Source: Patescibacteria group bacterium (GTDB taxonomy: Bacteria; Patescibacteriota; Patescibacteriia; UBA10025; JAHIVO01). Taken from it: a DNA stretch of 33,233 nucleotides. The position numbers were made by a program, and so were the translations under genes. Below the pieces are notes generated by a model. The model saw nothing but the letters and a program-made list of their open reading frames with translations, ran no database searches and was not told the origin of the DNA. The DNA is taken from positions 1 to 33,233 of the forward strand of contig JADFTK010000008.1 of NCBI GenBank assembly GCA_022560375.1, written 5' to 3'. Of this stretch, positions 3,145 through 5,609 are shown piece after piece. How positions within the stretch are numbered: the first letter of the stretch is position 1; every line of letters begins with the position of its first letter.

Positions 3145-4266
3145 ATGCATTGGCCCCATTACCATTTACATTTTTTTAAAAATAGAGAATTAAATGAATT
3201 GTACATTAGTGTTGCCATCAGATCATTTGCTCTGTCAATGATTAGTGTTTTTATCCCTATCTTTCTACTCAAACTGAACTATTCCTTATCCACTGTTTTT
3301 ATATTTTACGCCGTACTCTTTACTACCCACGTATTATTTATAATTCCCGCTACAAAAATTTCGTCTAGATTTGGATTTAAGCATTCAATTTTCTATAGCG
3401 TTCCAATATTGATTATTTTCTATTTTGGTTTATTCACACTAGAACAGTTTAACTGGCCTATCTATTTATTAGCCGTAATTTATGGCATTTGCAATTCTTT
3501 GTTTTGGATGGGTTATCATGTTGATTTTTCCAAGTTCAGCGATGAAAAGAACAGAGGTAAAGAGGTAGGAGTGACCAAGATCGTAAGTTTAATTTTCCAT
3601 ACTATCGGTCCGGTAATTGGTGGTTTGATTTTAACATTTATTGGTTTCCAAGCATTATTTGCCACTGTATCTGTTTTATTGATAACATCAGTAATACCTT
3701 TATTTTTCTCAAAAGACATTCATGATTCAATACGGTTTTCCATTAAAGAAATTTTCAAAGGACAGACAATAAAAAATGCACTTGCTTTTGCCGGTCATGG
3801 TATTGAACTGGGAATATCCTCTGTAATATGGCCAATTTTTATCTTTTTTACCATACTAAATAACTTCACAACATTAGGATTAGTCTCCTCATTATCCATC
3901 CTTTTTTCACTAATTTTTGTATTTATCGTAGCTAAGTATTCAGATATTCACAGAAGATTAATTCTAAAAATTGGGGCCATCATGAATGCCCTTATTTGGG
4001 GTGTAAGATTCTTTATCAAAACTACTTTTCAAGTATTTATTATTGATTCATTCTATGGTGTATCTCAATCATTGATTTCTATACCATTTGATGCTTTAAG
4101 TTATGATAAAGCAAATAAATCGAATATTGTAAAATTCATAATATTTAGAGAAACGATTGTTCAGACTGGAAAAGTCATCCTTTTTTTGGTTATGACGTTG
4201 ATTACCACACTAACTACAGGTTTCTTTTTTGGCGGTGGGGCATCTCTTCTTTATTTGTTATTCTAA
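3145..4266 (+). CDS. Major facilitator superfamily transporter
   Basis: 373 residues, nearly all hydrophobic, with 11-12 predicted membrane helices in two halves. The segment after helix 2 (ATKISSRFGFKHS) resembles the MFS loop 2-3 motif, and KYSDIHRR occupies the matching place in the second half. At this length the protein is somewhat short for MFS but still covers both halves. The substrate cannot be told from sequence. It lies 1 base behind the calcium-repeat protein gene and 10 bases ahead of the TfoX-N gene, suggesting one operon through the channel gene at 5609. Confidence 0.8.
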   Translation: MHWPHYHLHFFKNRELNELYISVAIRSFALSMISVFIPIFLLKLNYSLSTVFIFYAVLFTTHVLFIIPATKISSRFGFKHSIFYSVPILIIFYFGLFTLEQFNWPIYLLAVIYGICNSLFWMGYHVDFSKFSDEKNRGKEVGVTKIVSLIFHTIGPVIGGLILTFIGFQALFATVSVLLITSVIPLFFSKDIHDSIRFSIKEIFKGQTIKNALAFAGHGIELGISSVIWPIFIFFTILNNFTTLGLVSSLSILFSLIFVFIVAKYSDIHRRLILKIGAIMNALIWGVRFFIKTTFQVFIIDSFYGVSQSLISIPFDALSYDKANKSNIVKFIIFRETIVQTGKVILFLVMTLITTLTTGFFFGGGASLLYLLF

Positions 4267-4276
4267 GCTTAAGCTC

Positions 4277-4618
4277 ATGGCTAAGGAGTATTTAGAAAAA
4301 TTAACCGTATTGTTTGAGGGGCTAAGTTCCAATAAAATTAAGAATTCTGATTTCACTATCAAACATTTTTTTAGTGGGGCAGCTGTTTATATTAGTGGAA
4401 AAATTTGTATTTCCTTAACCCCGGTTGGCTTAGCCATGAAATTGTCGGAAGTGTCCAGACAGGAACTGATGAAGAAAAAGGGAACCAAACCACTTCGTTA
4501 TTTTCCTCAAGGGCATATCAAAAAAGAATATGTGGTACTATCCAAGGGAATGATTGATGATAAAACATTACTCAGAAGATTGATAATTGAAAGTTTTGCT
4601 TATGGACGAAGTAAATAA
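4277..4618 (+). CDS. TfoX N-terminal domain protein
   Basis: 113 residues from the ATG at 4277; an earlier in-frame start at 4229 would lie inside the MFS gene. The core KHFFSGAAVYISGKICISL (about 32-50) and the following lysine and KPLRYFPQG segments match the TfoX_N fold, which in Sxy/TfoX supports competence-gene activation. It lacks the C-terminal helical domain of full TfoX, as do many single-domain relatives of unknown role. A TATTCT box with an extended TG (4256-4264) lies within the end of the MFS gene. Its last 17 bases overlap the start of the channel gene, so the two are translationally linked. Confidence 0.75.
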   Translation: MAKEYLEKLTVLFEGLSSNKIKNSDFTIKHFFSGAAVYISGKICISLTPVGLAMKLSEVSRQELMKKKGTKPLRYFPQGHIKKEYVVLSKGMIDDKTLLRRLIIESFAYGRSK

Positions 4619-5609
4619 ATTAAAGGTAGGAATATCTCTTTTCCCGCCACTCATTATCAAAACTGGAGAAAAATATACTGGTTTTGAAATAGAATTATGG
4701 GAAAAAATTGCTCCAGCAATATCAGTAGATTTTATTTACCAAGAGATGCCCTTTAAAGAGCTACTAAAAAAGTTGACAATTAAAGAAATCGATCTGGCCA
4801 TGGCTGGAATAAAGAGGACGAATGAACGAGAGAAAATTATTGATTTTTCTCATTTCACACTTAGATCTGGTTTACTAATTTTGATATCTAAAAAGTCAAA
4901 ACTCAATTTGTTCAGTTTCATTAAAAATATAATAACTGAAAATTATAGAAATCTATTATATATACTTATCCTGATTTTGTTTTTTGTCGTAGTTATCGCC
5001 CATGGCATCTGGCTAATCGAGAGAAGTAGTGGCACTTTTGATTATTCATATTTCAAGGGGATTGGTGAGTCTATCTGGTGGACGATAGTTACTATCAGCG
5101 CCGTTGGTTATGGAGATTTTGCTCCACAGACTGTAGCCGGAAGACTAGTGGGAATATTTACAATAGTAACAGGCGTATCTATATTTGGATTGATTATCGC
5201 TAAATTAGCCTCTTTATTTACTTTAACAACATTGAAATATCAAATAAATTCTTATGGAGATCTAAATGGAAAAAAAGTGGCGACCAAGTCACATACCGTA
5301 GGGGTAGATGAGTTATCCAAGATTGGAGCAAAAGTCGTAACTGTAGACGAGATAGAGCAGGCTTTTGCCTTATTAGAGAATAATGAAATTGAGGCTGTTG
5401 TATTTGATGCCCCGGTGATACAACATTTTTTGCAGACCCAAGATGGTGAAAAGTTTATTTCTGTGGGCGGTGTCTTTGCTCCAAATACGTATGGAATAGC
5501 AGTGCAGTCCAATAGTAGATTGAGAGAGTTGATTAACCGAGAAATATTAAGATTGGTAGAATCGGGGGAGTACGATATGTTATATAAAAAATGGTTTAGT
5601 AAATTTTAA
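4602..5609 (+). CDS. GluR0-like ligand-gated potassium channel (SBP_bac_3 split by a pore)
   Basis: 335 residues from the ATG at 4602. Lobe S1 (about 6-97) is a family 3 solute-binding domain ending in the conserved TNEREKIIDFS block, with Arg76 at the ligand-carboxylate position. M1 is about 118-139, the pore helix about 154-165, the filter AVGYGD 167-172, and M2 about 181-208. Lobe S2 (about 219-334) follows, with Asp269 at the amino-group-binding position and a normal C-terminal end (YKKWF). This is the S1-M1-P-M2-S2 order of prokaryotic ionotropic glutamate receptors. Two oddities: the usual filter Thr is Ala167, and no signal peptide exists, since TAA at 4584-4586 closes the frame. A TTG at 4587 could add five residues. 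Overlaps the TfoX-N gene. Confidence 0.85.
   Translation: MDEVNKLKVGISLFPPLIIKTGEKYTGFEIELWEKIAPAISVDFIYQEMPFKELLKKLTIKEIDLAMAGIKRTNEREKIIDFSHFTLRSGLLILISKKSKLNLFSFIKNIITENYRNLLYILILILFFVVVIAHGIWLIERSSGTFDYSYFKGIGESIWWTIVTISAVGYGDFAPQTVAGRLVGIFTIVTGVSIFGLIIAKLASLFTLTTLKYQINSYGDLNGKKVATKSHTVGVDELSKIGAKVVTVDEIEQAFALLENNEIEAVVFDAPVIQHFLQTQDGEKFISVGGVFAPNTYGIAVQSNSRLRELINREILRLVESGEYDMLYKKWFSKF

Follow-up and report, generated by a model that had tools for sequence, protein, structure and literature searches.

A GluR0-Like Channel Gene Without a Signal Peptide

The window (the whole 33,233-nt stretch of DNA analyzed here, from a Patescibacteria genome of 1.1 Mb that is 97% complete) carries on its forward strand a GluR0-like channel gene, best placed at 4602–5609 and encoding 335 amino acids counted from the ATG at 4602 (stop codon 5607–5609). 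An in-frame TAA at 4584–4586 limits the open frame upstream, leaving TTG 4587, TTG 4596 and ATG 4602 as the only candidate starts. The initial annotation had placed the feature at 4584–5609; its end stands, but position 4584 belongs to the stop codon and the coding sequence runs from 4602. Six residues precede the binding domain, which begins at residue 7 (N-terminus MDEVNK-LKVGISLFPP). An overlapping ORF with a TfoX_N domain (4229–4618, forward strand) fills the 390 nt upstream and extends 17 nt into the channel gene, so there is no space for a lost signal peptide. In the 180 nt upstream, read in any frame, the best hydrophobic 13-mer reaches 0.77 on the Kyte-Doolittle scale, compared with 2.05–3.56 in frame in relatives that have a signal peptide. 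The earlier proposal that the TAA excludes an upstream signal peptide was thus borne out, and the window channel lacks this GluR0-type feature, as does the rest of the clade described below.

Domain searches matched SBP_bac_3 (8e-25, split over residues 7–333), Ion_trans_2 (5e-13), Lig_chan (1e-7) and Lig_chan-Glu_bd. The SBP_bac_3 halves surround the Ion_trans_2/Lig_chan region, giving the GluR0-type S1-M1-P-M2-S2 order that had been proposed from the first reading, and an AlphaFold2 model (mean pLDDT 88.7), the kind of structure prediction which that reading had called for, contains M1, a pore helix and M2. The S1 half of the amino-acid-binding domain (4620–4892, residues 7–97) is followed by a basic segment (4884–4952, residues 95–117) with a predicted short helix at 103–113, M1 (4953–5018, about residues 118–139; 115–140 in the model), the pore helix and selectivity filter (5049–5117, residues 150–166 and 167–172), the M2 inner helix (5148–5216, about residues 183–205; 178–211 in the model) and the S2 half (5241–5600, residues 214–333). 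The cluster of four Lys and one Arg reported before M1 corresponds to K97, K98, K100, K108 and R116, and the further basic residues past M2 to K201 and K212. Foldseek returned AMPA-receptor LBD-TMD chains (best-superposed TMq 0.70–0.74) and GlnH (TMt about 0.9) as the best PDB matches to the model, and the profile of the ligand-binding domain matched the GluR0 and NpGluR0 crystal structures 1ii5 and 2pyy.

The GluR0-type contact residues for an alpha-amino acid, an Arg in S1 and an Asp in S2, are present as R76 (4827–4829) and D269 (5406–5408); in an alignment of 19 sequences R76 never varies and D269 is conserved to at least 90%. They align with R75 and D157 of GlnH, which we take to contact the alpha-carboxylate and the alpha-amine, respectively, and these roles were carried over to R76 and D269. 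At another ligand-contact position the window copy has K71 in place of the Thr/Ser of its relatives, so its ligand binding may differ.

Apart from the channel, its genome contains no match to SBP_bac_3 and none to Ion_trans_2. When the surroundings of the gene were compared with seven homologous loci, only the channel was shared, aside from weak matches that are unrelated. Elsewhere in the window, within the same reduced genome, 1673–2278 encodes an acetate uptake transporter (AceTr_1/GPR1_FUN34_YaaH).

Signal Peptide Status of the Homologs

A search of the class found a match at E ≤ 1e-15 in 13 of 381 genomes. A single-protein query against genome contigs gave no matches, whereas an alignment query of the same contigs did find homologs; phage records searched for channel homologs gave no match. 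Signal peptide status was judged by following the frame upstream of every N-terminus as far as its stop codon. Twelve loci with a visible N-terminus, all from Patescibacteria-type genomes, lack a signal peptide (the window, L002, L006, L007, L008, L010, L011, L012, L013, L017, L019 and L099): in 12/12 the binding domain is separated from the in-frame stop by 5–27 residues, and none of these stretches resembles a signal peptide. L012 has a hydrophobic run before its ATG where a TTG start is possible, without a basic n-region, and the run is absent from its sister L013. Ten of the genes are full length with an intact frame, and nine of these ten share 32–46% identity with the window protein; L010 is cut by a contig end and L011 is frameshifted past its N-terminus. 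A further locus, L022, was counted as lacking a signal peptide in the first charge count and in the tree, but was omitted from the robustness tests as no N-terminus can be seen in its frame.

The more distant channel relatives of the first set carry a signal peptide. In these 14 (L009 and L014 from the same class, L100 from the same phylum, L020, L021, L024–L029 (Flavobacteriaceae), and L031–L033), the signal peptide was seen in 13; that of L031, cut by a contig end, was presumed from its near relatives L032 and L033 (planctomycete type). A held-out set of 10 comprised L118 and L119 from IMG/VR contigs, one from a Kovacikia plasmid and seven from alphaproteobacterial plasmids. Together the signal peptide-bearing proteins span Bacteroidota, Planctomycetota, proteobacteria, one cyanobacterium, two IMG/VR contigs and, with two members, the window's own class. 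Most close homologs therefore lack a signal peptide, contrary to the possibility raised at the outset that all of them would carry one and that the window copy would be frameshifted. Judged from these sequences, the window gene is not a broken copy, and the absence of a signal peptide recurs across the clade.

Several unusual loci were also noted. Three putative viral IMG/VR contigs (395 kb, 119 kb and 211 kb) have channel loci matched by PHROG 10776/7872 profiles; two encode signal peptide-bearing GluR0-like channels (L118:407–1474 and L119:2950–3987) and L120 gave the same match. Six of the alphaproteobacterial plasmid proteins (L122–L125, L127 and L128) are Group 2-like receptors, in which the pore loops are not of the K+ type (e.g., TTSGKITR) and the loop side is strongly positive; where annotated at all, they are recorded only as substrate-binding proteins. 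At L016:979–1935 (G340) an unrelated glycosyltransferase-like N-terminus is joined to the M2-S2 part of a GluR0-like protein in one ORF, which may reflect either a gene fusion or a join made in the assembly. L015 (G313:C1:3999–4373) is a lone S2-like half in a 150-aa ORF whose frame lacks the channel half.

Charge Bias and Predicted Membrane Orientation

Orientation was assessed with a score that subtracts the Lys and Arg residues on the pore-loop side (M1-P and P-M2) from those on the binding-domain side (before M1 and after M2). In the first set, full-length proteins without a signal peptide scored +3 to +7 and those with one −4 to 0, and over 48 choices of segment boundary the 10 full-length members of the former group and the 14 of the latter never overlapped. 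Nine of the 10 held-out signal peptide-bearing proteins were negative, the exception being L118 at +1. Overall, every protein lacking a signal peptide was positive, and 23 of the 24 carrying one were zero or negative. As a positive control we used 64 ordinary K+ channels, whose pore loop is known as a class to enter from outside. With automatic segment finding the means were +4.0 for these canonical channels (range 0 to 8), +3.75 for the proteins without a signal peptide and −1.8 for those with one, although under these automatic boundaries the window protein scored +1 and the signal peptide-bearing L118 +2. As a group, the clade lacking signal peptides was indistinguishable from the K+ channels in its charge bias.

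By the positive-inside rule of von Heijne, positively charged residues mark the cytoplasmic side of a membrane protein. The excess on the binding-domain side in the members without a signal peptide therefore points to N-in/C-in proteins, and this pattern suggests that both lobes are cytoplasmic and that, as in KcsA, the pore loop dips into the membrane from the outer side, the reverse of GluR0. The same rule predicts N-out/C-out for the signal peptide-bearing proteins, in agreement with PhoA fusions to GluR0, which place both lobes and both termini outside (PMC13099474, 2026). The initial annotation had suggested cytoplasmic lobes and an outward-facing pore loop for the window protein; the flip of the charge bias with signal peptide status, and its match to K+ channels, support this orientation. 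On the same basis the window protein would differ from GluR0-type receptors in not having its binding lobes outside the cell.

In a phylogenetic tree, sequences with and without a signal peptide were split by one branch with modest support (61/91). The change in signal peptide and the charge flip are probably a single evolutionary event, and with both on one branch, Mann-Whitney p-values overstate the independence of the comparison. Rooting with plain binding proteins, to learn whether loss or gain of the signal peptide came first, left the outgroup sequences scattered on long branches and gave no order.

Selectivity Filter

The filter of the window protein, AVGYGD (GCC GTT GGT TAT GGA GAT, 5100–5117), differs from the K+ filter TVGYG(D) by a single change at the first position, confirming the Ala for Thr that had been read there. 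This Ala is found in the window copy only and is hence no family trait: TVGYGD is present in L002, L006, L007, L010 and L017 and TIGYGD in L099, and among the remaining members without a signal peptide the filter is TVGFGD, TVTFGD or plainly broken. With AVGYGD, the S4 site is missing its Thr hydroxyls. In KcsA T75A, water replaces the S4 ion and conductance drops, whereas selectivity data for equivalent Thr mutants in other channels are contradictory (PMC11251424). By analogy, a weakened innermost ion site (S4) is plausible in the window channel.

Altered or degenerate filters beside conserved binding domains were seen in L012:209–1192 (HMSFYD), L013:1498–2478 (HLSFYD), L011 (GTDGGF), L022 (TDSFGD) and L008 (TVTFGD). 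Such filters make a K+ channel role impossible for some of these relatives, which are possibly non-conducting or non-selective sensors.

Proposed Mechanism and Alternative Explanations

We consider the window protein to be, with a probability of about 0.7, a cation (K+-type) channel from the GluR0 lineage, two-TM and tetramer-type, that sits in the membrane entirely upside down compared with GluR0 and is gated by a cytosolic amino-acid clamshell. Its most likely form is an MthK-like, cytosol-gated channel with an amino-acid-binding domain in place of RCK. Without a signal peptide, the S1 lobe would fold in the cytosol; M1 would insert N-in, the P loop would enter from outside as in KcsA, M2 would return to the cytosol, and S2 would then join S1 to complete a cytoplasmic clamshell. 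A cytosolic amino acid, its alpha-carboxylate on R76 and its alpha-amine on D269, would close this clamshell and thereby pull on the ends of M1 and M2, the site of the inner-helix gate, much as the RCK rings do in MthK, so that K+ flux would track the internal amino-acid pool. The gate would lie on the binding-domain side in either orientation, and when inverted this becomes the MthK arrangement. A functional chimera of the GluA1 LBD and a viral K+ channel indicates that such a binding domain can drive a K+-channel pore (PMC6385376).

The window protein could instead keep the GluR0 orientation, with its lobes outside, if its N-terminal 117 residues were translocated without a signal peptide and M1 acted as a reverse signal-anchor. 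Every relative that has been measured (GluR0 and the animal iGluRs) has its lobes outside, the binding domain has periplasmic homologs, and two close signal peptide-bearing relatives occur in the same class. We nevertheless regard this as unlikely: the positive residues before M1 and after M2 form the wrong pattern for an N-out protein, a charge flip accompanying the loss of the signal peptide would have no reason, and we know of no established route for signal peptide-independent translocation of a folded domain of ~100 residues. It is likewise improbable that the gene is decaying, with loss of its signal peptide and filter, and that its product is no more than an amino-acid sensor, either soluble or tethered to the membrane. 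The Ala in the window filter, the altered filters of L008, L011, L012, L013 and L022 and the frameshift in L011 would fit such decay, but the frames of the 10 full-length genes are intact even at the divergence noted above, GYGD is retained in the window gene, L002, L006, L007, L010, L017 and L099, the group keeps its charge pattern, and the window gene is the only one of its kind in its genome for both domains. The L011 frameshift, lying near the N-terminus, could also hint at a signal peptide missed through an assembly error or a wrong start. The N-terminus of L011 in the other frame, MRRSAKKLKVAIS, likewise lacks a signal peptide, 12 assemblies show the same arrangement, and the DNA upstream of the window gene is taken up by another ORF that reaches up to and into it. 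An overlooked signal peptide is thus highly improbable, and a frameshift or missing signal peptide in the window was rejected on account of the TfoX_N ORF and the recurrence in homologs.

If the inverted, cytosol-gated reading is true, a K+-type channel would be gated by the internal amino-acid pool in cells of very reduced metabolism, and would provide a naturally occurring scaffold for a channel gated by intracellular amino acids. It also bears on the old puzzle of how glutamate receptors acquired an orientation opposite to that of K+ channels. The fusion protein occurs in two related sets, partly within one class; one set has a signal peptide and the other lacks it, and their charge patterns are opposite, which makes the inversion directly testable. 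More tentatively, and with considerable doubt, the Patescibacteria clade may show the iGluR plan in inverted form, with cytosolic amino acids gating a pore oriented as in K+ channels; this state may lie close to the ancestral fusion between a K+ channel and a binding protein, in which case the upside-down orientation of iGluRs came by gain of a signal peptide (or was undone by loss) with matching charge swaps.

Comparison With Known Systems

Ger et al. (2010) noted four prokaryotic glutamate receptors without a signal peptide, two from Group 1 and two from Group 2, and listed a pseudogene, another insertion route or the opposite orientation as options, with no test (PMC2950845). Beyond this remark, our literature search found nothing about glutamate receptors in Patescibacteria/CPR or about an inverted GluR0 clade without signal peptides. 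New here are a recurrent group whose genes are intact, an inversion of charge that goes with signal peptide status, and the positive control with ordinary K+ channels.

The window protein shares with GluR0 (slr1257, Synechocystis) and the Group 1 receptors (PMC2950845) the S1-M1-P-M2-S2 order, a K+-channel-type filter, an SBP_bac_3-type domain and the conserved Arg and Asp. GluR0, however, has a hydrophobic N-terminus taken as a signal peptide, lobes outside by PhoA fusion (PMC13099474) and a filter that begins with T, whereas the window protein has no signal peptide, the reverse charge bias and a filter that begins with A. It is a GluR0 homolog that lacks the signal peptide and, probably, the outside lobes; hence we treat it as a variant rather than an ordinary member. 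In its predicted pore orientation, with the loop entering from outside and the gate and termini inside, it would resemble KcsA and MthK, with which it also shares a charge bias of the same kind and, but for the first residue, a TVGYGD-type filter; its predicted cytosolic gating domain, however, is a split amino-acid clamshell with the pore inserted, and there is no RCK or C-terminal bundle. GlnH and SBP family 3 share its fold and ligand-contact Arg and Asp; these are exported soluble proteins or lipoproteins, whereas the window domain is interrupted by a channel, lacks a signal peptide and is predicted to be cytosolic. AMPA receptors, the top Foldseek matches, have the same LBD-TMD layout, but the window protein differs from them in having no NTD, no M4, a K+-type filter and the opposite predicted orientation.
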